Assembly: GCA_019637395.1 (NCBI GenBank) | Contig: JAHBVR010000010.1 | Span: forward strand, 62,001-126,000 | Length of the DNA: 64,000 nucleotides | Reading direction: 5' to 3' | Source: Vulcanimicrobiota bacterium | GTDB taxonomy: Bacteria; Vulcanimicrobiota; Xenobia; Xenobiales; JADMJV01 | Part shown: positions 2,198 to 59,402 of the stretch, in pieces | How the letters are laid out: every line of letters begins with the position of its first letter | How positions within the stretch are numbered: the first letter of the stretch is position 1 | Notes under the pieces: generated by a model | What the model was told of the DNA's origin: nothing | Seen by the model: the letters and a program-made list of their open reading frames with translations, nothing else | The model's database searches: none | Position numbers and translations under genes: made by a program

Positions 2198-2716
2198 ATG
2201 AAACTCAGCAACCTGTTCCATCGACCGAGCCATACACTGAGCAAGAAGCCCAAGCCCGACGCCGATTTCGGCCAGGACCTGGACTCGGGCCTGAGCCACA
2301 AAGCCAAACTCGGCATGGCCGCCGGCTGGGTTGGCCTGACCACAGCCGCGGGCGCCGTCATCGGCCACCAGCGAAGTCTGACCGATGTGGTTACGGTGGA
2401 ACGGGTGCCCTATCAGGAAACCATTCAGGTGCCCATCGGCAGCCACACCGAAAGCGGCTGCTATCAGTATCATTACGGCTATGACGCCATCCAAGGCGAG
2501 TTCGGCTATCACTACGGCTACGATGCCAGTTGCACCCAGACGGTGACGGACTATCAGACCCAATACACGGGACGCACCCTCTACAACGAAATCAAGCATC
2601 ACAGTACCGGCTTTCCTCATTCGGCCACACAGGGCGCGCTGCTGGGAGCTGGCGTGGGCATCGTGACCGGCGCGGCCGGCCTCGTACTGTCCAAGCTCAT
2701 CGCCGATAACCACTAA
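2198..2716 (+). CDS. Small membrane protein with duplicated HYGYDA loop, function unknown
   Basis: 172 residues, unrecognised. A polar N-terminus precedes a short hydrophobic segment near residues 32-50 (Gly/Ala-rich). An extracytoplasmic-looking loop follows, then a second Gly/Ala-rich hydrophobic segment near residues 145-168. The loop carries a direct duplication of Y-H-Y-G-Y-D-A (about residues 90-96 and 103-109) flanked by single cysteines, so a disulfide is possible. The composition suggests two membrane-spanning glycine-rich helices around an aromatic loop. It lies 42 nt after the response regulator and may share its transcript. No function is proposed. Confidence 0.6.
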   Translation: MKLSNLFHRPSHTLSKKPKPDADFGQDLDSGLSHKAKLGMAAGWVGLTTAAGAVIGHQRSLTDVVTVERVPYQETIQVPIGSHTESGCYQYHYGYDAIQGEFGYHYGYDASCTQTVTDYQTQYTGRTLYNEIKHHSTGFPHSATQGALLGAGVGIVTGAAGLVLSKLIADNH

Positions 2717-2791
2717 GGGGTATCCGGATCCCTACGCTCCTTTTTCTGTTCAGCCTACTCTGAGTTGGGGTTCAACTTGAGGAGGAAGATG

Positions 2792-3352
2792 ATGTTTGTA
2801 ACTTTGCATGCCAGTTTTGAGGACGCCGCGCTGGGCGAGAAAGCTATGGGAGCGCTACTCGACCACGGAGTGGCCCGAGAGGACCTGTCCGGCTTTTTCC
2901 CGTCCGACTACGAGACCGAAGACGTGCACGAGGTCCGCGCCAATCTGAAGCACGGCATCACCACCACCACCAGTGCCGATGCGGCTTCGGGCGCGGCCAA
3001 GGGAGCCGGCGTGGGCTTTGGAGTGGGCGCGGTGGCCACCCTGGCCAGCTTGCTCATTCCCGGTTTCGGCCTGGTCACTGGAGGGGGAGCTTTGGCTACG
3101 GCTCTTATCGGAGCAGCCGGCACCACGGTGGGAGGAGCGGTGGCCGGCGGTATCGCCGGCTACTTCGAAGACCAGGGCGTGGACCATCAGGTAGCCCTGG
3201 ATTCCGAAGCCGCGCTCCGTCACGGGCGCGCGGTGGTAGTGGTGCGCTGCCCTAGCGGCAAGTTGTCCGAAGCCGAAATCAGCGCCATTCTGCTCAAATA
3301 TCACGCCAGTACCTTCGGCCGCATAGAGGCTCCGGCGATTATTGGCGAATAG
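2792..3352 (+). CDS. YflT-like stress protein domain with inserted glycine-zipper membrane segment
   Basis: 186 residues. The N-terminal 40 residues (FVTLHASFEDAALGEKAMGALLDHGV) resemble the ferredoxin-like fold of general-stress YflT/DUF1269-type proteins. The second half of the fold returns at the C-terminus (GRAVVVVRCP). Between them is a long Gly/Ala-rich hydrophobic stretch (about residues 65-125) with glycine-zipper spacing, likely membrane associated. Two ATGs are tandem at 2789 and 2792. AGGAGG at 2780-2785 gives 3 or 6 nt spacing, so 2792 is preferred. The family role (stress-related) is known only loosely, and I infer nothing more specific. Confidence 0.6.
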   Translation: MFVTLHASFEDAALGEKAMGALLDHGVAREDLSGFFPSDYETEDVHEVRANLKHGITTTTSADAASGAAKGAGVGFGVGAVATLASLLIPGFGLVTGGGALATALIGAAGTTVGGAVAGGIAGYFEDQGVDHQVALDSEAALRHGRAVVVVRCPSGKLSEAEISAILLKYHASTFGRIEAPAIIGE

Positions 3353-3361
3353 CAGGGCCCG

Positions 3362-4015
3362 ATGGCCCTGTCCTTTGGCCCGCCCACCGATCTAACGGCC
3401 CTGGAACTTCTTCAGCAACGCGTCTGGGGTTGTTCCGCCAACGAGATCGTGCCGGCCCATTTGCTGCAAGCCCATCAACACCACGGCGCCTGTGTGCTGG
3501 AAGCCAGGCTGAACGGGGAATTGGTGGGCTTGCTTTATGCCGTCCCCGGTCCGCTCGGAAGCGATTATCTCTATTCTCACCTGGCCGCCATCACGCCCGA
3601 GATGCAGGGACGCGGCTACGGCCGGCAGTTGAAGCTGACCCAGGCTTCCTGGGCGCGCGAGCGCGGTTACCGGCGCATTGTCTGGACTTTTGATCCCCTC
3701 CAGGTTTTGAACGCGCGCTTGAATATCAGCCGTCTGGGGGCCGTGTGCAATCGCTATCTGGTCGACTACTATGGGGAGCTGGATGACGAACTGAACCGCG
3801 GAGTGCCCACCGATCGATTTGAGGTCGATTGGTGGTTGAGTCCCGTGGAGCGCGGCCCGGTGACAGAAACGGTCACCTTCGAGCTGGGCGCGCGCTCTCG
3901 GGAAAGCACCCGCCATCGATTCTTAGACTCGTTTGCTCGCGGGCTTTCGGTCATTTCTTTCGAAGTTGTCGAAGGGCGGGGAATTTATGGGCTGGGGGTG
4001 GTCCATGCGCCTTGA
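3362..4015 (+). CDS. GNAT-family acetyltransferase (COG3375-like)
   Basis: 217 residues with a GNAT core. The acetyl-CoA binding motif MQGRGYGRQLK (about residues 78-88) is preceded by a beta strand ending in a conserved helix start, and the C-terminal part is beta-rich. Proteins of this subgroup are frequently encoded beside MenC/N-acylamino-acid racemase-type enolases, and that is the arrangement here: the next gene starts inside this one. The likely role is acylation of an amine or amino acid that is then the partner's substrate. This is inference from context. The acceptor substrate cannot be read from the sequence. Confidence 0.75.
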   Translation: MALSFGPPTDLTALELLQQRVWGCSANEIVPAHLLQAHQHHGACVLEARLNGELVGLLYAVPGPLGSDYLYSHLAAITPEMQGRGYGRQLKLTQASWARERGYRRIVWTFDPLQVLNARLNISRLGAVCNRYLVDYYGELDDELNRGVPTDRFEVDWWLSPVERGPVTETVTFELGARSRESTRHRFLDSFARGLSVISFEVVEGRGIYGLGVVHAP

Positions 4016-5108
4016 TCGAGTCGAGTTGCGCTGGGTGTCCATGCCCTTACGCACACCGTTCGAGACCAGTTTCGCCCGCGAAACCGAGAAGGACTGCCTG
4101 TTGGTGCGGGTCTTCGGCGAGGGATTCGAAGGCTGGGGCGAGGTGGTAGCGATGAAAGAGCCGCTTTACAATGAGGAAACTCTCAAGTCTTGCTGGCACA
4201 TTCTGGAGGATCTGCTAATACCGCTGGTGCTGTCACGTGCCTGGGAGACGATGGAGGAGTGGGACGAGGCGACCCGAGCCATTCGGCGCAATTACATGGC
4301 TCGAGCCGGTCTGGAAGCGGCGCTGTGGGATCTTTATTCTTTATGTCAGGGCCAATCTCTGGCGGCTTTATGGGGCGGGGTTCGCCAGCGGGTGGAGGTG
4401 GGGATCTCGCTGGGCATCGAGGCTTCTTTGGACCGGCTGCTACCTCAGGTTGAAGCTGGAATCGGCCAGGGATATCGTCGCGTGAAGCTCAAGATCAAGC
4501 CGGGCTGGGACTTGGAGGTCGTGCGAGCGGTGCGCTCGCGCTGGCCCGACCTGGTGCTGCAGGTGGACGCCAATTCCGCTTACCACCTGCGGGACGCCGA
4601 GCATCTGAGCCGACTCGACGACTTCGGTCTGTTGCTGGTAGAGCAACCCCTGGAACATGATGACATCGTCGATCACGCGGCCCTGCAAAAGCGAATAAAA
4701 ACACCGATTTGTCTCGATGAGTCAATTGATACGACGGAGCAGTGCCGGCGAGCTTTAGAGCTGGGCTCGGCTCAAATCATCAACATCAAGCCGGGACGGG
4801 TCGGCGGTTACGCCGCGGCGCGAGCCATTCATGATTTGTGTGCGTCCCGCGCGGTACCGTGCTGGGTGGGCGGCATGCTGGAGACAGGCGTGGGCCGCTT
4901 GCAGAATCTGGCGCTGGCCTCGTTGGAAAACTTTAAGCTGCCGGGCGATATTTCCGCCTCGCGCCGCTATTTCGAGCGCGATATCATCCACCCTGAGGTG
5001 GTGTTGGAATCCGATGGTTGCGTACGCGTCCCCGAAACGCCGGGAACAGGACAGTTTCTGGACTGGCGGGCGTTGGAAAGATCTACTGTTAGATTGGGGC
5101 ACTGGTAG
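4005..5108 (+). CDS. menC: o-Succinylbenzoate synthase / N-acylamino acid racemase family enolase
   Basis: 367 residues, the full family length. The enolase-superfamily active site is complete: K161xK163 (VKLKIK), metal ligands D188 (LQVDAN), E213 (LVEQPL) and D238 (CLDES), and K262 (NIKPG). These positions almost coincide with those of the Amycolatopsis racemase/OSBS. ATG 4005 is chosen because it starts the family alignment (RLDRVELRWV) and follows a G-rich SD-like stretch. It overlaps the GNAT stop by 11 nt. No other men genes are in the window and the neighbour is an acyltransferase. N-acylamino-acid racemisation is therefore as likely as menaquinone synthesis. Confidence 0.88.
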   Translation: MRLDRVELRWVSMPLRTPFETSFARETEKDCLLVRVFGEGFEGWGEVVAMKEPLYNEETLKSCWHILEDLLIPLVLSRAWETMEEWDEATRAIRRNYMARAGLEAALWDLYSLCQGQSLAALWGGVRQRVEVGISLGIEASLDRLLPQVEAGIGQGYRRVKLKIKPGWDLEVVRAVRSRWPDLVLQVDANSAYHLRDAEHLSRLDDFGLLLVEQPLEHDDIVDHAALQKRIKTPICLDESIDTTEQCRRALELGSAQIINIKPGRVGGYAAARAIHDLCASRAVPCWVGGMLETGVGRLQNLALASLENFKLPGDISASRRYFERDIIHPEVVLESDGCVRVPETPGTGQFLDWRALERSTVRLGHW

Positions 5109-5138
5109 CCTGAAACAAGTCCGGACCGGAAGCAACTC

Positions 5139-6308
5139 TTATACCAGGGTTTTGGAAACGGCTTTCTCGAGCGCTTGCTGCAGGTCCCCGATGAGGTCCT
5201 GGGTATTCTCGATGCCTACCGAGATACGGATGAGACCATCGGCAATTCCCATTTCCAAACGGCGTTCGCGCGGGATGCTGGCGTGGGTCATGGTGGCCGG
5301 GACTTCGATGAGGCTTTCCACGCCACCGAGGCTTTCAGCCAGCAGGAAGAGCCGGGTGGACTCGACCAGGGTCCTGGCTTCCTCGATACCGCCTTTGATC
5401 TCGAACGAGATCATGCCGCCGAAGCCATGCATCTGGGCTTTGGCCAGAGCGTGCTGCGAGTGGGAGGCCAGGCCCGGATAGATCACCTGGCGCACGGCCG
5501 GATGGGCTTCCAGGTACTCGGCGATGGCCTGGGCATTGCGGGCGTGGGCCTGCATGCGCACAGCCAGGGTCTTGAGGCCCCGCAGAGCCAAAAAACAGTC
5601 GAAAGGACCCGGAATGGCTCCCACAGCGTTCTGGTGAAACCGCATGTCGGCGGCGATTTCATCCAAGTTGGTAGCCAGGATGCCGCCCACCAAATCGGAG
5701 TGACCGCCCAGGTACTTGGTGGCCGAGTGCATGACGATATCAGCGCCTAACTCCAGAGGACGCTGGAAAGCCGGTGACATGAAAGTATTGTCGACCACCA
5801 CCAGCGAGCCATTGGCCTTGGCCAATTTACACACGGCGCGGATGTCGGTGAGCTTGAGCAACGGATTGGTGGGGCTCTCGACCCAGACCATCTTGATCTT
5901 GGGGTTGAGATGTTTTTCCACCTCGGCCAGGTCACTGGTATTCACGAAATGCGCCTGGACGCCGAATTTGCTCATCACTTTGGTGAAGAAACGGAAAGTC
6001 CCACCGTAAACATCATCCGAGACGAGCACTTCGTCTCCGCTCTGCAGCAAGTACATGCAGTTGTTGGTGGTGGCCATGCCGGAGGCGAAAGCCACACCGT
6101 GTTTGGCGCCTTCGAGGGCGGCCAGACATTGCTCGTAAGCCTGGCGGGTGGGATTGTTGGTGCGCGAATACTCGTAGCCCAGTCGGGGTTGACCCAGGCC
6201 TGCCTGAGCATAGGTGGAGGTCTGGAAGATGGGAACGTTGACGGCTCCCGTCATGGCCTCGGGGTCCTGGCCGGCATGGATGGCCAGCGTTTCCAACTGA
6301 TATTTCAT
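5139..6308 (-). CDS. Cystathionine gamma-synthase/gamma-lyase family PLP enzyme
   Basis: 389 residues of the Cys/Met metabolism PLP family. PLP lysine K198 sits in HSATKYLGGHSD. D173 (VVDNTF) contacts the pyridine nitrogen. Y46/R49 and the SGMAT loop bind the phosphate. Length and motifs match MetB/MetC/MccB-type enzymes that use O-acyl-homoserine or cystathionine. Synthase and lyase cannot be separated by eye. The start ATG overlaps the secG stop by 4 nt (ATGA), so it is the last gene of the gap-pgk-tpiA-secG transcription unit. It converges on menC with only 30 bp between the stops. Confidence 0.9.
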   Translation of the reverse strand: MKYQLETLAIHAGQDPEAMTGAVNVPIFQTSTYAQAGLGQPRLGYEYSRTNNPTRQAYEQCLAALEGAKHGVAFASGMATTNNCMYLLQSGDEVLVSDDVYGGTFRFFTKVMSKFGVQAHFVNTSDLAEVEKHLNPKIKMVWVESPTNPLLKLTDIRAVCKLAKANGSLVVVDNTFMSPAFQRPLELGADIVMHSATKYLGGHSDLVGGILATNLDEIAADMRFHQNAVGAIPGPFDCFLALRGLKTLAVRMQAHARNAQAIAEYLEAHPAVRQVIYPGLASHSQHALAKAQMHGFGGMISFEIKGGIEEARTLVESTRLFLLAESLGGVESLIEVPATMTHASIPRERRLEMGIADGLIRISVGIENTQDLIGDLQQALEKAVSKTLV

Positions 6309-6640
6309 AGACGGATCACCGAAGCCACGATCATCGAAAGAAAGAGAAAAGCGTAGGCCAGGTTGTTGGTCAAGTCGGAGAGGCGTTCTTCGCCGGTCAT
6401 CTTGCCCTTGGCCGTCGGCTGCGAGGGAGCCGACATGCTCTGCTGCATCAAACCCTCAGACTTGTTGGTGCGCAAAGTGACGCATACGATCAAGGCGGCG
6501 CAGACCACAAAATACAGGGTCAGCAGCGCCAGTTTCCAACCGGCCAGACCGCCCGTCGCGCCGGCCTGGTTGAGTTGCTCCACTACAATGTCGGGGGTGG
6601 GCAGCGGCGCCAGAGGGGTGGGGGATTGGGCGAACCACAT
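6305..6640 (-). CDS. secG: SecG-like preprotein translocase subunit
   Basis: 111 residues with two predicted membrane segments (about residues 34-55 and 90-108). They are joined by a cytoplasmic loop beginning LRTNKSEGLMQQSM, which corresponds to the SecG loop that usually reads Q-x-G-K-x-x-G-L. SecG assists SecYE in protein export. Gene order supports the call: secG commonly follows tpiA in bacteria, and here tpiA ends 11 nt upstream. The SD AAAGGAG lies 5 nt before the ATG. The N-terminus is Pro-rich and longer than usual. Confidence 0.8.
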   Translation of the reverse strand: MWFAQSPTPLAPLPTPDIVVEQLNQAGATGGLAGWKLALLTLYFVVCAALIVCVTLRTNKSEGLMQQSMSAPSQPTAKGKMTGEERLSDLTNNLAYAFLFLSMIVASVIRL

Positions 6641-51471: not shown

Positions 51472-53193
51472 TCAGGCCAGATCGGCGGAATCTTCCTGAG
51501 CGTAGCCGTCGTCCTCGCCGGCGTTGGAATCGTCAGCGTGGATATACTTTTGCAAGGCGTCGTCGAGGCGGCGGACTTGCCACATTTTCTGGCTTCCTTC
51601 GTAGTAGAAGCGCAGGCCCTCGACCATCTTATCGTTGTCGTCGTCGCTGGCGCCGTCGCGCATCTGGGTGAGGCCGTATTCGGTCTCCTCCACGCCCTGG
51701 GCGAGCAACTCCAGTGCCTCAGCGCAGAGATCGATGAATTCTTGGGCCTTGGCGCGTTCTTCTTCAGTGGCTTCGGGCGGCACGGGCGGAGCGTGGTATT
51801 TGGAAAGCTTCTTCTTGGCATCCTCGGTCTTGTCCAGGTAATCATCCATGACGGCCAGGAAGCCCTCGAGGGACATTTTCTCGCCTTTGAAGTCTTCATA
51901 GGCATCGAAGACTTCTTTCATGGTGGTGGTGATCACGCCGTCGCGCGAGGTATCCACGCTCTCGCCTTCGAGAGCCTGAAAGCTGCCGGCCGTCTGGCCA
52001 TAGAGTTCGCTGCCGGTCATCTGAGGCAGCACGCGGTTACACTTGGCGCAAGATTTGTTGCTGGTGGCGTTGGGCGTCTGGCAGTGGGGACAGAGCACCT
52101 TGCCATAGTTCTCGCTGAAGCTGTCCAGACTGGCCTTGCTCTCCAGCATCTCCTTGGTCAGGTCCTGGAGATCGCGCAAGGCGGCCCGCACTTCTTCCTC
52201 GCTGCCCTGGGCGTCGCAATAAGCCACGATGGCCAGCAAAGCCTCCTCAATTCCTTCCATGGCTTCCAAGGCTTTAGGCGTTTCCGTCTGGATGACGCTG
52301 GATTCGTGAGGGGCCTTGACCACCGCCTGCATTTCCTTGATCCCTTCTTGGGTCGCTTCAATCTGGGCGGTGCACAAATCGCGCAGCATGCGCGGCTGAA
52401 ATTGCTTGGCCAGCACGCCTTCGGCGGCGTTGAGGATGATGTTGATGGCGGGAGCTCCGGTCGGTCCCGAGGTAATCTCCCGATTGTAGGCGGCCACGGC
52501 TTCATCCAGGTCGCGATGTCCGTCAGCCAGTGCCTGAATGACCTCCTCAAACTTGGCGCCGGAGGTGGTCGGGGTAAACTTCTCCATTTCCTGGAGAGCT
52601 GCGACAATGTTCTCCAGGGCTTTGCGGCGCTCGGGCACACCGGCCGCCTCCTGCTTCTTACTGGCGTTGACTTCGCGCAGGGCCTCGGTGTAAAAGGCGT
52701 CGTATTGCTTGCAGGTGCCCACCCAGGCTTCCAGGCTGGTGCGCTTTTCGCGCAAGGCTTTGCCCAGATTGGTGAAAACGTTGATGAGCGGGTAGCGATG
52801 GGGACCTTCGGAGAGCAGTTTCTGTTCGTAGGCCGACATGGCGGCGGGCATGCCGTTGGAGCAGAAAGCCAGCATGTGGGCCGACTCTTCCAGCAGCTCC
52901 TTTTTGGGGTCGGCTTTGAACTTGAGGATCTGCTCCAGGGCGGCGTCGTAGCTTTCGAAATACTTACCGATAAGGTCGATTTCGACTTTATGCTTCTGCT
53001 GAAAGTCGGCCGGCTGGCTCTCGACGCTGGCGAAAAAGCCGTCACTGGCCTGAGTCAAGGCGTCCTGGCGAGCGCTGACGGCATTCTCCAACTGCGGATA
53101 AACGTCCATTTTGCCTTCGGCGACATCGAAGCAAAGGTCGATCAGTTGTTGCGATTCCGGCGAAGCGGCGACGGGTCTGGTAGCTTGGCTCAT
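51472..53193 (-). CDS. Helical protein with one zinc ribbon, unknown
   Basis: 573 residues, almost entirely alpha-helical with long coiled-coil stretches. A single C-x2-C...C-x2-C ribbon (LCPHCQTPN, SCAKCNRVLP) sits near residues 375-395, and a very acidic tail (EDDGYAQEDSADLA) closes the protein. No enzymatic motif is seen. It is the last large gene of an ATGA-coupled operon with the GNAT and UPF0489-TPR genes. A scaffold or adaptor role is suggested by composition only. Confidence 0.6.
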   Translation of the reverse strand: MSQATRPVAASPESQQLIDLCFDVAEGKMDVYPQLENAVSARQDALTQASDGFFASVESQPADFQQKHKVEIDLIGKYFESYDAALEQILKFKADPKKELLEESAHMLAFCSNGMPAAMSAYEQKLLSEGPHRYPLINVFTNLGKALREKRTSLEAWVGTCKQYDAFYTEALREVNASKKQEAAGVPERRKALENIVAALQEMEKFTPTTSGAKFEEVIQALADGHRDLDEAVAAYNREITSGPTGAPAINIILNAAEGVLAKQFQPRMLRDLCTAQIEATQEGIKEMQAVVKAPHESSVIQTETPKALEAMEGIEEALLAIVAYCDAQGSEEEVRAALRDLQDLTKEMLESKASLDSFSENYGKVLCPHCQTPNATSNKSCAKCNRVLPQMTGSELYGQTAGSFQALEGESVDTSRDGVITTTMKEVFDAYEDFKGEKMSLEGFLAVMDDYLDKTEDAKKKLSKYHAPPVPPEATEEERAKAQEFIDLCAEALELLAQGVEETEYGLTQMRDGASDDDNDKMVEGLRFYYEGSQKMWQVRRLDDALQKYIHADDSNAGEDDGYAQEDSADLA

Positions 53194-53777
53194 GTTGTCT
53201 CCCCTGATTTTTTCTTACGGCTTTTGAGCATGCGGGTGACGGCGTGATCGCGCTCGGCGAAAGGCCGACCTGGCATGCGAACTCTTCCTTCGGGTCCGCA
53301 GGCGATCGTCAACTGGTAGCGTTCGATTTCGAACCCCATTTTGACGGCGCTCAGCAGAGCCCGTTCGTTGCTGGCGGTGACTTTCGAGGTCATATAGCGG
53401 TACCCCCTCTGGTGGGAAACTTTGCAGGCCTCCCAAACCAGCCGGTGGCCGGCCCACTTACCCCAATACTCAGGTCGAACCGCAAGATTAAAGATGTAAG
53501 ACTGCTTCTCGCCGGTGGATTCTTCGGTGTGATTGAACTCAAGGATGATAAAGCCGGCCCGTTCGTTGTTTCTCTCGGTGTCGACGGCCACCAGGATGGC
53601 GAATTCGCGTTTACGGGTGATCCATTGTTCGAGTTCGGCCAATCCGGCCTGGCAAAGCTCTTTGACCTGGTCGGTGGGGATGTCGCGTTGTTCGGGAATC
53701 CCCTGGCCCACCACCTCGAGGGAGAGTTCCCGGATAAAGGAGCAATCAGTCAGGCCGGCTCGGCGGACTTCGATCAT
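53190..53777 (-). CDS. GNAT-family acetyltransferase
   Basis: 195 residues. The GNAT fold has a strand IFNLAVRPEYWG followed by the acetyl-CoA loop, here YWGKWAGHRLV in place of the usual R/Q-x-x-G-x-G/A. The sequence RGYRYMTSKVTASNERALLSAVKMGFE is typical of the C-terminal half (N-x-x-A/S...G-F). It overlaps both neighbours by 4 nt (ATGA), indicating equal, coupled synthesis with the UPF0489-TPR and zinc-ribbon proteins. The acceptor may be one of them, but this is only inferred. Confidence 0.8.
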   Translation of the reverse strand: MIEVRRAGLTDCSFIRELSLEVVGQGIPEQRDIPTDQVKELCQAGLAELEQWITRKREFAILVAVDTERNNERAGFIILEFNHTEESTGEKQSYIFNLAVRPEYWGKWAGHRLVWEACKVSHQRGYRYMTSKVTASNERALLSAVKMGFEIERYQLTIACGPEGRVRMPGRPFAERDHAVTRMLKSRKKKSGETT

Positions 53778-55090
53778 CGGCGTTTTTGGCTCAGAGCGAT
53801 CTTCACCGGCAACCTTTCGGTTCGGATGCCGAGTTTTCCCGGCAACTCCAGCGAGGTCAACTTGCGATATTCAGCCTGGGCGCGCAGCGCCTGTTCGGTT
53901 TCGATGTAGAGTTCGGCCAGGTCGATCTGAGCTTCCAGGTTATCGATTTTCAGGGGCTCCAGCTTGATGGCTTTGCGCAGGCTCTGGATCGCTTCCTTTT
54001 TCAGTCCCTGCTTTCTTTGAAGGCGGCCCAATTCCCGGTAGGCGTCGCTATCCGGCAGGCATTTTTGCAAGGCTTCCATGGCCAGTTCGGGCTTGTCGCT
54101 ATAGGCTCTGGCGATCAGGGTAAGGAGGTGCTTTTGGGTGAGGGGGTCGGCCTGTTCCAGCAGACTGCTCCAGTCTTTGACGGCCTGGCTCGGTTGGTGT
54201 TGTTCGAGAGCGATAAAGCCTCTGATATAGGCGGCTTGATCGGGGGGGAGCCATTGGAGGCAGCGGTCGTACTTTTTACGCTGCCAGTATAGAGCGGCCA
54301 CGTCGAAGGGATTGATTTGATAGGCGGGGGCCAGGCGGGCGGCCTCTTCCCAGGCGGGGCCCTGATGATCGCTGCCGCTACCCCAGGCGCGGGTAACCAG
54401 GGCGGCCGCCTGCAGGCCGGGGGGAGCGTTTTCCAAGGATTGCAGGGAGTTCATGAGATCCCACCACTGTTGGGCCTGGATTTCCTGGTCGGACCAGAGG
54501 AGTTCGGCCAGGTCGCCGAGGTATCTTCTGGCCAGAGGGGTGTAGCCGCCGCGCACCGAGTAGGCGACGGTAGTGGCCTGGATTTCCAGGTGCCGGGTAA
54601 TTTCTCGGAGCTGGAAAGGGGTCTGCCAGACGCCGTCTTGTTCGTCGATCAGATAGTCGACGTCGAGGTCGAAGAGCCAGGGCCCGGTTGACTCGGGCAA
54701 ATGGTCGCTGGTGCACAGGGTGAAGGGAGCGTTCCTCAGGCTGCCCTGGACTCTTCCCTCGACCAGTTTAAGGGAGTTGAATTCCTTCAGGTCGAGGGAC
54801 AGCCAGCGAGGCAGTTCGCTGTAGCTCCAGTGGAGCAGGTCTTTGTGAGCCTTGCTCAGATGCGGCGGAACAACCCAGACAACCTGGCTGACGATGCCCT
54901 TTTCCACAGCCTTGAGCAGGTAATTGGCGCAATTGATCTCAGGATGGTCCAGCGAGCTTTCCAGAGGACTGAGGAAGCCGGCCATGTCGAGATGGGCGTC
55001 GATGTGCAGGCAGGAGGCTCCCCGGATGCCCAGCTTCTCCCAGAAGAAGTAGGCGTCGCGGTGATCCTCCATCATGAGCAACGGTCCCAT
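53774..55090 (-). CDS. UPF0489 domain fused to TPR repeats
   Basis: 438 residues. The first 200 residues belong to the UPF0489 (arginase-fold-like) family: HIDAHLDMAG and LFDLDVDYLID give Asp/His clusters that could bind metals. Residues 225-420 hold TPR-like helical repeats, including SDAYRELGRLQRKQGLKKEA. The family function is unknown. The gene starts an operon with the GNAT and zinc-ribbon genes by ATGA overlaps. The ATG at 55090 lacks a clear SD. A terminator separates it from the upstream Gly-rich gene. Confidence 0.7.
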   Translation of the reverse strand: MGPLLMMEDHRDAYFFWEKLGIRGASCLHIDAHLDMAGFLSPLESSLDHPEINCANYLLKAVEKGIVSQVVWVVPPHLSKAHKDLLHWSYSELPRWLSLDLKEFNSLKLVEGRVQGSLRNAPFTLCTSDHLPESTGPWLFDLDVDYLIDEQDGVWQTPFQLREITRHLEIQATTVAYSVRGGYTPLARRYLGDLAELLWSDQEIQAQQWWDLMNSLQSLENAPPGLQAAALVTRAWGSGSDHQGPAWEEAARLAPAYQINPFDVAALYWQRKKYDRCLQWLPPDQAAYIRGFIALEQHQPSQAVKDWSSLLEQADPLTQKHLLTLIARAYSDKPELAMEALQKCLPDSDAYRELGRLQRKQGLKKEAIQSLRKAIKLEPLKIDNLEAQIDLAELYIETEQALRAQAEYRKLTSLELPGKLGIRTERLPVKIALSQKRR

Positions 55091-55133
55091 GGGGCCGCTT
55101 TCGTGGGTCGCCCGGGGACCTCCCCTATAGAAA

Positions 55134-55159
55134 AAGAGACCCCGTTGCCAGGGCCTCTT
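55134..55159 (-). terminator. Terminator after Gly-rich gene
   Basis: Stem of 9 pairs (55134-55142 with 55151-55159, one G-T), 8-nt loop, then TTTTTC on the minus strand. It ends the Gly-rich protein transcript before the UPF0489 operon. Confidence 0.85.
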
Positions 55160-55180
55160 CTTCCTTTTTGTCGCTTACTT

Positions 55181-56026
55181 CTAGTAGAAGAACTGACGCG
55201 GTCCGCCGGGCATACAGCCACAGCAGGGGGGCTGCATGAAGGGCGGGGGAGCGCAGGGGTTCTGCATCATGTTGTTCATTCCGCAGTTCATAAAGCCACC
55301 CTGTTGCATCATCTGCATCTGCTGCATCGTCTGCATCATTCCCATCATCTGGGACATCATGCCCATCATCATCATCATTTGCTGCTGCTGCATACCGGGG
55401 TTAAAGCCGCCGCCGGGGAAGCCGCCGGGGAACTGGCCCGGGAATTGACCGGGGAAACCGTAGCCGCCGCCGGGGAAGCCACCGCCGGGATAACCACCCG
55501 GGTAACCGCCGGGGAAACCGCCACCGGGGAAGCCGCCGTAGCCATAGGGCGGGAAGGGAGGCGGCATGATGCCGCCGCAGCCGTTACCATAACCGCCGTT
55601 GCAGGGACCGAAGTCGCGGCAGTTGTTGGCCTGGCCACATTCACCCTGGGGTCCGACCCCGAAGAGATTCTGAACTCCGTTGTCCAGGAAGCCGGCCACG
55701 CCCGAGATGGCTTTGCCGGCCATAATACCGGCACCGGCGCCGGCCATAATTCCCAGAGGATTTCCGAAGGTAAGGACGCCGCCTACGACGCCGCCGATGA
55801 CACCACCGACAATCGGGTCACCGGCGATGTTCTTGACCGCCGAAAGACCACCGTGGAGCACTTCGCCGGTGCCTTTGACGACACCACCCACGACCGAGCC
55901 GAGAGCGCCAATCGGATCACCGCTCAGAAGTTTGCCGGCGCCTTCGACGACACCGCCGACTACGCGTCCTACGCCGCGAGCGACACCGCTGACGACATTA
56001 CCTACAGCACGAACTACTCCACCCAT
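55181..56026 (-). CDS. Glycine-zipper / FPGG-repeat / Met-rich protein
   Basis: 281 residues with four blocks. (1) Residues 1-120: V/G/A-rich glycine zippers (GGVVGG, GVVRAVGNVV), likely membrane-inserting or fibre-forming. (2) A cysteine-containing stretch (GECGQANNCRDFGPCNG). (3) Residues 160-210: repeats of F/Y-P-G-G/Q. (4) Residues 212-245: Gln/Met-rich (QQQQMMMMMGMMSQMMG). A terminal Cys/Pro part (CGMNN, PPCCGCMPGG) follows. GGAGGG lies 7 nt before ATG 56026. No homologue known; a structural, pore-forming or metal-binding surface protein is possible. Confidence 0.6.
   Translation of the reverse strand: MGGVVRAVGNVVSGVARGVGRVVGGVVEGAGKLLSGDPIGALGSVVGGVVKGTGEVLHGGLSAVKNIAGDPIVGGVIGGVVGGVLTFGNPLGIMAGAGAGIMAGKAISGVAGFLDNGVQNLFGVGPQGECGQANNCRDFGPCNGGYGNGCGGIMPPPFPPYGYGGFPGGGFPGGYPGGYPGGGFPGGGYGFPGQFPGQFPGGFPGGGFNPGMQQQQMMMMMGMMSQMMGMMQTMQQMQMMQQGGFMNCGMNNMMQNPCAPPPFMQPPCCGCMPGGPRQFFY
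55405..55540 (-). repeat. FPGG-coding tandem repeat
   Basis: Imperfect tandem units of about 12-15 nt (plus-strand consensus CCGCCGGGGAA) coding F/Y-P-G-G/Q within the Gly-rich gene. Units differ in third bases and in F/Y, so they are older than a recent slippage event. Confidence 0.7.
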
Positions 56027-56130
56027 TATAAATCCCTCCAGATTCCGTTTCGTTCAAAGTTTGAAGCTTGTTGTTGGATTACTTATCCCCCCCGTACTCG
56101 GGTCATCTAGGGGGCAGATGTTGAATGTTT

Positions 56131-56992: not shown

Positions 56993-58303
56993 TTAGCCCT
57001 CGCTGGCTTTGTCTCCGGCACTCTCACCGCGGCGCGCGCGCCGCCAGATGGCCGGCAAATCCATCCACTTGCTCTTCTTCTCTGTCTCGCCGCTGGCCAT
57101 CCCACCCTTGCGCACCAAACCGGCGCGAGCGGGAGCGGGAGCGGCGGCCGCGGCCGGGACCTTGGCAGCCGGTGCGGGCGGTCGTTGGGAGGGAGCGAAG
57201 GAAATCTCGGCCGACTCCTGGCGCTGGCGGCGCTCATAGGCGGTCAGTTCCTGGTGAGGCAGCGCCGCCGAAGCCAGTGGCAGCAACTCGTTGTCGCGCA
57301 CCACCGGTTCGTCGTGCAGTTGGTGCGATGCCAGTTGGGGCTTGCGCACGCTGTCGGCGGGAACCACCCGGGTGGCCACCACGGTAGCGCGGGCGCGTCC
57401 CATCATCGAATCGTCCTGCACGTAACCGCACAGCACCATGGCCTCGGGAGAAGCCGATTCTTGCAGCAGCGCACAGGCAGCCGAGTAGTCCTGCAGGGTC
57501 ATATCCGGACCGGCGGTGATATTCAACAGGCAGCCGGCGGCACCGTCGGGGGAGCCACCCACCAGCGGATTGCTCAGGGCCAGTTCCACCGCGCGCTGAG
57601 CGGTGGGAGCCGTGGCCATGCCGAAGATGGCCCGGCCCGAACCCTCGAGCACGGCCCGCACGTCGGCGAAGTCCAGGTTGATGACCCCCGGCATGGTGAC
57701 GATTTCCGTCATTCCGCGCACGGCATCACAGAGCACCTGGTCGACCACGTTGAAGCTCTCGTCCAGCGGGCAGTTGCCCGACTCCATGGCCAGCAGCTTC
57801 TGGTTGGGCAGCACCAGCAACGTATCCACCTCGTCCTGCAGAGCGGCCACGCCCTCGCGAGCCACGCGCACGCGGCGGTGCCCCTCGAACTCGAAAGGCA
57901 GGGTGACCACGGCCACCACCAGCGCGCCGGCTTTGCGGGCAGCCCGAGCGGCCACCGGGGCGGCGCCGGTTCCGGTGCCACCGCCCATGCCGGCGGTCAA
58001 GAAGACCATATCCACGCCTTCGAAGAGCTCTTCCAGGCGTGCCGTACTCTGCTCGGCCGCCTTGCTGCCCAGGCGGTGGTCCGCTCCGGCGCCCAGGCCG
58101 CGGGTCGCGCCTTCACCCAGGAAGATGACCTTAGGTCCTTTGCGACTCGACAGTAGAGCCTGGGCGTCGGTATTGGCCAGCACCAGGTCGACCCCCACGG
58201 GGGGTCTTTCGGCCAGGCGGTTGACCAGATTGCAGCCTGCGCCGCCCAGTCCCATGACCAGGATTTTTGCAGGCTGTTCGGTGTTTTGAGGGGAATTGAA
58301 CAC
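56993..58303 (-). CDS. ftsZ: Cell division protein FtsZ
   Basis: 436 residues from GTG 58303, with AAGGAAGG upstream. Tubulin signature GGGTGTG at 107-113 (TAGMGGGTGTGAAPV). The GTP-hydrolysing T7 loop N-L-D211-F-A-D214 is intact. The C-terminal linker is Ala/Pro-rich, and KSKWMDLPAIWRRARRG contains a conserved-type C-terminal peptide (D-L-P-x). FtsZ forms the division ring. It is not surrounded by ftsA, ftsQ or mur genes. A second FtsZ elsewhere cannot be excluded. It is divergent from moxR, with an AT-rich 166-bp region between. Confidence 0.95.
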   Translation of the reverse strand: MFNSPQNTEQPAKILVMGLGGAGCNLVNRLAERPPVGVDLVLANTDAQALLSSRKGPKVIFLGEGATRGLGAGADHRLGSKAAEQSTARLEELFEGVDMVFLTAGMGGGTGTGAAPVAARAARKAGALVVAVVTLPFEFEGHRRVRVAREGVAALQDEVDTLLVLPNQKLLAMESGNCPLDESFNVVDQVLCDAVRGMTEIVTMPGVINLDFADVRAVLEGSGRAIFGMATAPTAQRAVELALSNPLVGGSPDGAAGCLLNITAGPDMTLQDYSAACALLQESASPEAMVLCGYVQDDSMMGRARATVVATRVVPADSVRKPQLASHQLHDEPVVRDNELLPLASAALPHQELTAYERRQRQESAEISFAPSQRPPAPAAKVPAAAAAPAPARAGLVRKGGMASGETEKKSKWMDLPAIWRRARRGESAGDKASEG

Positions 58304-58469
58304 GACCCCACCTTCCTTCTCGAGTGAATTTAATTCTAGTAGATGATGAAAATTCTTCAAGAAACCAAAAATCCTGCAGAACAATGAAGGGATTCCACAA
58401 AAAACAAAATATAGAACACAGTTTCGCCTGCCCCGCCCAGAAGTGAACCGAGGAAAGTGAGCAAACGTA

Positions 58470-59402
58470 GTGGCCCCCGTGAATGTCTTCCAACGAATCA
58501 TGACCAACCTGGAACTTGTCGTGCGCGGTAAAACCGCGCCGCTGCAACTGCTGGTGGCCACTATCTTCGCCGGCGGCCACGTGCTCATGGAGGATGTGCC
58601 CGGAGTGGGCAAGACCACCCTCTCTAAGGCGCTGGCCAAAACCATCGGCGGCGACTTCCGCCGCGTCCAGTTCACTCCCGACCTGCTGCCCACCGACATC
58701 CTGGGCTCCTCGATCTATAGTCCCAAAGACGGCAGCTTCGAGTTCCGCCAGGGCCCCATCTTTGCCAACGTGGTGCTGGCCGACGAGATCAACCGGGCCA
58801 GCCCGCGCACTCAGTCCAGCTTGCTGGAGGCCATGTCGGAGGGGCAGGCCACCGTCGAAGGCGTCACCTATCCCTTGCCCAGGCCGTTTCTGGTATTGGC
58901 CACCCAGAATCCGGTCGAGTTTCACGGCACCTACCCGTTGCCCGAAGCGCAGCTTGACCGCTTCTCGGTCAAGCTCTCCATGGGCTACCCGGCCAAAGCG
59001 GATGAAGCCTCCATCCTGGAGGGCCAGCGCGGCAGCCACCCGCTCGACCGCCTGGAGCCGGCCATTCAACTCGACGAACTGGTTCAGGTGCAGCAGCAAG
59101 TCGCGCAAATCAAGATGTCTTCCGAAGTTCTCGGCTATCTGCTCGACATGATCGAGGCCACCCGCAACGACTCGCGGCTGCGCCTGGGCTCCAGTCCACG
59201 CGGCTCGCTGGCTTTCTACCGGGTTTGCCAGGCCTGGGCCTACTGTCAGGGGCGCGACTACGTGATTCCCGACGATCTGCAGCGCATGGCCGAGCCGGTG
59301 CTGGCCCACCGCCTGGTGCTGGACACCAAGACCAAGTATAGCGGCATCAGCAAAGAACAGATCGTCAGCGAACTGCTCAAGAAGGTGGCGGTTCCTGTCT
59401 AG
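58470..59402 (+). CDS. MoxR-type AAA+ ATPase
   Basis: 310 residues. Walker A EDVPGVGKTTL (K48), Walker B VVLADEINRA (D105/E106), sensor 1 LATQNP and the lid motif SPRGSLAFYRV define MoxR proteins, which act as chaperones for metalloenzymes or surface assemblies. The GTG start at 58470 has AGGAAAG 12 nt upstream; GTG 58479 is possible. It is followed by DUF58 and transglutaminase-like genes, the usual MoxR trio. With VWA-type domains absent here, the client is probably the DUF58 protein. Confidence 0.92.
   Translation: MAPVNVFQRIMTNLELVVRGKTAPLQLLVATIFAGGHVLMEDVPGVGKTTLSKALAKTIGGDFRRVQFTPDLLPTDILGSSIYSPKDGSFEFRQGPIFANVVLADEINRASPRTQSSLLEAMSEGQATVEGVTYPLPRPFLVLATQNPVEFHGTYPLPEAQLDRFSVKLSMGYPAKADEASILEGQRGSHPLDRLEPAIQLDELVQVQQQVAQIKMSSEVLGYLLDMIEATRNDSRLRLGSSPRGSLAFYRVCQAWAYCQGRDYVIPDDLQRMAEPVLAHRLVLDTKTKYSGISKEQIVSELLKKVAVPV

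Follow-up and report, generated by a model that had tools for sequence, protein, structure and literature searches.

A glycine-zipper protein of Vulcanimicrobiota as a candidate cargo of a gene module with a zinc-ribbon partner

We analyzed a 64,000-nucleotide stretch of DNA from a Vulcanimicrobiota bacterium (GenBank assembly GCA_019637395.1, contig JAHBVR010000010.1, positions 62,001 to 126,000), hereafter the window, in which the minus strand encodes a 281-residue protein built of glycine zippers, Cys-rich segments, FPGG repeats, and a Met/Gln block (Table 1). Three genes downstream of this zipper gene lies a gene for a helical protein with a CxxC...CxxC motif, for which we coined the name CCZR, and between the two sit genes for a peptide-arginase-like enzyme and a GNAT acyltransferase. 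The latter three genes look like one operon, since adjacent genes overlap by 4 bases, and the terminator of the zipper gene separates it from this unit. Upstream of the zipper gene, the window encodes an FtsZ family protein (56993-58699; Tubulin, E 1.1e-41), the gene for which does not adjoin the zipper gene in the orthologous loci examined.

Table 1. Features of the zipper gene and of the genes downstream of it (positions in the window)
Feature	Positions	Strand	Basis or remark
Zipper/low-complexity/Cys-tail protein, 281 aa	55181..56026	-	ATG start; orthologue comparison
Glycine-zipper block, residues 1-122	55661..56026	-	Cationic amphipathic helix followed by a hydrophobic hairpin
First Cys block, residues 128-150	55577..55645	-	Sequence; shared with L004 and, in part, with f1 relatives
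FPGG repeat block, residues 151-208	55403..55576	-	Varies between species
Met/Gln block, residues 209-243	55298..55402	-	Predicted helix 210-242; missing in some orthologues
Cys tail (CCGC), residues 248-281, C-terminal PRQFFY	55184..55285	-	Sequence comparison
Arg277 codon, fifth from C-terminus	55196..55198	-	Arg at -5 in 6/8 homologues
Upstream two-box element CCCTAGA-N18-GATA	56084..56112	-	Conserved in orthologues
Ribosome-binding site GGAGGG	56034..56039	-	Sequence; 7 nt upstream of zipper-gene start
Intrinsic terminator hairpin of zipper gene	55129..55164	-	Fold and T run
Peptide-arginase-like enzyme: UPF0489 N-terminal domain and C-terminal TPRs	53774..55090	-	Motifs, profile and structure match
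GNAT acyltransferase	53190..53777	-	4-base overlap with arginase-like gene
CCZR: helical, CxxC...CxxC zinc ribbon	51472..53193	-	4-base overlap with GNAT gene; homologues near zipper/low-complexity genes phylum-wide

The open reading frame claimed in an earlier note on this DNA exists, with the blocks as described there. It is coding and not a chance frame, because the orthologue in SZAS-1 EREM-KAN-1 (locus L004) is 81% identical, with identical blocks in the same order, and because substitutions between the two genes fall mostly on third codon positions (34, 29, and 107 at the first, second, and third positions, respectively). The gene is under purifying selection (dN, 0.127; dS, 0.81; dN/dS, about 0.16). 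The protein was thereby confirmed as real, being neither a sequencing nor an annotation oddity, and a large plus-strand frame across the same bases (54701-56110) was taken as an antisense artefact.

The terminator proposed for the gene was also found, as a hairpin followed by a T run (-26.3 kcal/mol; z, -4.8) that a simple consensus scan missed; by eye, most orthologues likewise have a hairpin and a T run after the stop codon. The claim of a separate promoter region with a palindrome stood only in part. CCCTAGA-N18-GATA is present upstream of the gene in the window and in L027, and it recurs as CCCCTAGA-N18-GATA in L019 and L020 and as CTAGA-N18-GATA in L024, a class-level relative. The region with the CCCG-AGTA-CGGG palindrome, on the other hand, folded no better than its shuffles (z, -0.01), and no sigma-70 match was seen upstream of the gene. 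A sigma-28 regulon, considered from the CTAGA-N18-GATA spacing, was rejected: only one other site was found in the genome, not above the reversed control, and there was no match to the FliA consensus.

As the earlier note had supposed, the window protein belongs to no recognisable family: searches of Pfam, NCBIfam, PADLOC, and PDB chains gave no match, and in Pfam nothing was reached even at E<=1, the glycine-zipper families included. A phage or plasmid origin was rejected for lack of a match, PHROGs giving for the window zipper protein only a weak tape-measure match (E 0.04), as was an RNA element, for which Rfam returned nothing meaningful. When 149 genomes of the phylum (Vulcanimicrobiota/Eremiobacterota) were searched, G002-G006, G015, G017, and G026 yielded clear homologues and G019 a short one, and the orthologues span five families. 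Weak matches in L003, L012, and L015, where the frames look antisense, and in L014, ribosomal protein S5, were set aside as chance. Of the two findings that the earlier note named as refuting, neither arose: no close homologue annotated as an ordinary structural protein turned up, the genomes searched being unannotated, and in G001, the one sister genome lacking the frame, other genes fill the syntenic site and no frameshifted remnant was seen.

The homologues begin with MG[GR]V, or with VGRV from a GTG start codon in G015, and M1, G2, V4, G24, V26, G29, G47, G69, P71, G78, G92, G96, and G100 are invariant in the eight that were aligned. The glycine-zipper N-terminus is common to the orthologues, and in most of them the middle is also of low complexity and the tail rich in Cys or His. 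FPGG in the window protein gives way to QPYGQ, QPWGQ, or GMGMG, the Met run is absent from L018 and L020 (two of the five f1 members), and class-level relatives largely have His in place of the tail Cys. The four-block combination noted earlier is thus partly incidental and not what the family conserves, because its Met and FPGG blocks vary from one orthologue to another, and the listed blocks are less telling than the family and the neighbouring genes, which that note missed. Nor are the repeats collagen-like or elastin-like: no regular GXY triplets or VPGXG pentamers occur, only irregular FPGG/YPGG units. An Arg in the tail is the fifth residue from the C-terminus in six of the eight aligned members and the third in one; the remaining member, the G005 orthologue (L018), has no Arg in its tail, though an arginase-like gene and a GNAT gene adjoin it.

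AlphaFold modelled the window protein poorly (pLDDT 52): the helices across the zipper are of low confidence, and one in the Met block is better defined (residues 210-242; pLDDT, about 74-86). Residues 1-37 form a strongly amphipathic, cationic helix, and hydropathy reaches a transmembrane-like peak at residues 67-85, which is consistent with the earlier suggestion that the zippers are able to insert in membranes. By inspection no signal peptide was seen, and no dedicated exporter was identified.

The enzyme encoded next to the zipper gene contains the three motifs described for peptide arginases (PMC12703449) and the six metal ligands of OspR (PMC10028609). It matched NF052474 with an E value of 3.8e-6 and 26.6 bits, far below the NCBIfam cut-off of 350 bits, and PDB chain 8brp, the OspR peptide arginase, with an E value of 0.0011. 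MEDHxxA, HxDAHLD, and DxDxDY are conserved in seven homologues, the first motif being EDH and not EEH. Twelve of the 149 genomes carry the arginase-like gene, including all 10 with an MG[GR]V zipper protein; among the 31 CCZR-positive genomes, it was present in 10/10 zipper-positive genomes and in 2 others, with a p value (1.5e-6) uncorrected for phylogeny, and large genome size and common descent may underlie the co-occurrence.

Besides, the arginase-like gene also has a GNAT partner where the zipper gene is not nearby. A second low-complexity family with exactly one Arg and no Lys lies beside these enzymes, and its QR[IV]N.CC motif is invariant in three species. In L074 (G000:C23:203000-214000), G000 being the genome of the window, positions 2492-6337 hold a second cluster, with genes for the single-Arg protein, GNAT, UPF0489, and, on the opposite strand, CCZR; it has orthologues in G001 and G004. 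G001 itself lacks the zipper gene and keeps the arginase, GNAT, and CCZR genes of the locus with 72-92% identity; since the zipper gene was lost and the rest kept, the zipper client is dispensable to the other three. In the phaeornamide cluster, a precursor, an OspR-like arginase, and a GNAT gene stand together, and the arginase produces ornithine, which the GNAT then acylates (PMC9505594). By analogy, the tail Arg of the zipper protein might be converted to ornithine, a possibility to which we give appreciable weight while holding it doubtful.

CCZR, like the zipper protein, matches no known family. Its structure model is of high confidence and almost all-helical, the cysteines of its zinc ribbon are invariant across 21 aligned homologues, and the fold search returned only nonsignificant vinculin/alpha-catenin-like helical bundles (best E, 0.04). 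A match between CCZR and LmuB was marginal (E 0.006), and a defence system was rejected. By profile search, CCZR occurs in 31 of the 149 genomes, in 1 to at least 9 copies each, and was not found in f12, f15, and f16, the families with most of the remaining genomes. Several copies, in G000 and in other genomes, adjoin a Gly/Met/Gln-rich protein.

We examined this linkage in 40 CCZR regions taken from the hit list alone, with the neighbours unseen, of which 38 were usable; a zipper/low-complexity frame was counted when it lay within 250 nt of CCZR on the same strand. Such a frame was upstream of CCZR in 13 of the 38 loci versus downstream in 1 (Fisher, 6e-4), and the single downstream case precedes the next CCZR; the background was 27 zipper/low-complexity frames among 1,228. 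The count of 13 is perhaps one too many, since it includes L144, where the upstream frame resembles a cytochrome gene or an artefact, and a few further upstream genes look related by eye yet fail the rule. The link is an enrichment and not a rule, because 25 of the 38 loci have no adjoining zipper/low-complexity gene by this definition. The linkage was seen in f1, f4, f6, f8, f10, and f13 and also on contigs C2, C4, and C23 of G000. Thus, the module is well supported as a conserved gene association; it is repeatedly duplicated and previously undescribed, and it belongs to one little-studied bacterial phylum.

Several further loci are of note. In L076 (G000:C4:253000-264000), a Met/Gly-rich protein is encoded directly before CCZR (3780-5902), and its C-terminal part reads like a cysteine peptidase/CHAP domain, with no Pfam match. 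A Ser/Thr protein kinase gene directly follows CCZR in class-level relatives (L022, 9012-9984; L024, 3612-4766). Genes near CCZR or the zipper gene share a GxFTxDxxRA motif (L075, 6775-8697; L018, 8152-13919), one of them adjoining a GHKL-ATPase-like gene. Finally, L025/L013 (G031:C80) encodes two tandem proteins of reversed order, Met-rich first and with a C-terminal glycine zipper.

Zipper/low-complexity proteins of this kind often carry an added domain. We found NlpC/P60 in an L021 protein (E 1.5e-13), the gene for which does not adjoin CCZR; weakly matching RTX-like repeats in L037, L041, and L043, where adjacency to CCZR is not established; and a DUF1521-like region with GDPH in L078, L079, L126, L131, and L145, where the Pfam matches were weak or absent. 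In L142, the gene upstream of CCZR encodes a transglutaminase (E 2.9e-20) and not a zipper protein. Calcium binding triggers self-cleavage of DUF1521/MIIA domains at GDPH, and such domains have been described in proteins secreted by the type III route (PMC6506597); because other clients bear domains of this type, export is our leading reading. SctV/FlhA homologues are abundant in these genomes, none scoring above the hrcV cut-off. In G000 (L160, 3852-5779) and G017 (L170, 9680-11507), short CCZR homologues are found no more than a few kilobases from flagellar/T3SS-type export clusters, a proximity that is suggestive at most. The export cluster in L170 also encodes two near-identical helical proteins of 69-77 residues in tandem.

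We tentatively favour, at somewhat below an even chance, the view that the CCZR module handles the zipper protein as cargo for export or for the cell surface. The protein would be a client of a Vulcanimicrobiota gene module that has no name in the libraries searched: its glycine-zipper half would act as a membrane-active, aggregation-prone head, its middle as a flexible low-complexity spacer, and its Cys/His tail, with an Arg near the end, as a site of binding, cross-linking, or modification. We infer that CCZR is the cytosolic partner, a putative chaperone that would hold clients soluble or pass them to an export machine, and paralogous clients with a similar head and spacer would carry exported-type domains. 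In this lineage, the TPR-bearing arginase-like enzyme and GNAT, co-operonic with CCZR, may modify the clients, converting Arg to ornithine and then acylating it, in the manner of the corresponding enzymes for selidamide-type peptides. The full scheme, namely a phylum-specific export or surface-display system with CCZR as its chaperone and, in one branch, cargo matured by arginase and GNAT into full-size ornithine or acyl-ornithine proteins, is a more demanding proposal and on the whole rather improbable.

Other readings of the locus can be weighed against cargo of the CCZR module. The zipper protein might be a structural surface or matrix protein, anchored in the membrane by its zippers, with FPGG/QPYGQ as a stalk or fibre and Cys tails that cross-link copies, and CCZR and the enzymes might be chance neighbours or assembly factors only. 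Its composition would suit such a role, as would fast-changing middle blocks between a conserved head and tail and a separately terminated transcription unit; however, neither the phylum-wide linkage to a zinc-ribbon partner nor the co-occurring arginase-like enzyme is predicted by this account, the lack of a visible signal peptide also speaks against it, and we regard it, taken together, as unlikely. Still less probable is a copper or zinc store formed by the Met- and Cys/His-rich parts, a role close to the Cu(I) binding suggested in the earlier note. The exchange of Cys and His in the tail fits some metal binding, though not that of Cu(I) in particular, and a store would leave the conserved zippers and the tail Arg unexplained. 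The Met block is also missing in two of five f1 members, and the neighbours examined include no recognisable metal transporter or metal regulator; we give a store a slim chance.

The arginase motifs and the paired GNAT, encoded next to the zipper gene, raise the further possibility that the protein is a very long precursor of a ribosomally synthesized and posttranslationally modified peptide (RiPP), its Cys/Arg tail being a core that is converted to ornithine or acyl-ornithine and perhaps released, and the rest a leader. The Arg at -5 in most members and the single-Arg protein of the paralogous cluster are in line with this. Against it, known RiPP leaders do not resemble a 281-residue protein whose zipper domain is conserved, Pfam and NCBIfam gave no known precursor type or leader family for the window protein, and the neighbours examined include no further recognisable RiPP maturase and no peptidase transporter; moreover, a core Arg is not found in all members with the enzymes, as the L018 tail illustrates, and G001 has the enzymes without the zipper gene. 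We judge a RiPP-like precursor quite unlikely, though less so than a metal store. A hydrophobic head with a dedicated partner also recalls type VI secretion, in which prePAAR effectors have Eag chaperones. A VipB sheath homologue was found in none of the 149 genomes, with the E. coli control positive, so this reading was rejected, being refuted within the limits of that search, and has next to no probability left.

Vulcanimicrobiota/Eremiobacterota are nearly uncultured, and a multicopy module of two unnamed families, linked to exported-type domains, provides a handle on how they build their surface or affect the cells around them. Should a full-length protein be the substrate of the arginase-GNAT pair, chemistry described for small ribosomal peptides would be extended to proteins.

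Among known families, Pfam Gly-zipper_Omp, YMGG, and Rick_17kDa_Anti share GxxxG-rich hydrophobic segments with the zipper family, and Gly-zipper_Omp is matched by two of eight zipper members (best E, 1.5e-5), unlike the window protein; moreover, no lipoprotein or OmpA context surrounds the zipper gene. The likeness to DUF1521/MIIA proteins such as NopE1 lies in the GDPH motif, and the domain around it, of the five proteins named above; the window protein is without the domain, and the other clients differ in adding zipper or low-complexity heads. With the peptide arginases OspR, FlmR, and OhkR (NF052474; UPF0489), the neighbouring enzyme shares DXHXD, EDHxxA-like, and LDxDxDY motifs along with the metal ligands, and it likewise adjoins a protein with a conserved Arg and is paired with GNAT as in phaeornamide; it differs in its C-terminal TPR domain, its low score, and its putative 281-residue zipper-protein substrate. 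No lanthionine synthetase, hydroxylase, or peptidase transporter of the selidamide clusters was recognised near the zipper gene, and CCZR is present instead, whereas a substrate gene together with an OspR-like arginase and a GNAT is common to the phaeornamide cluster and the window locus.
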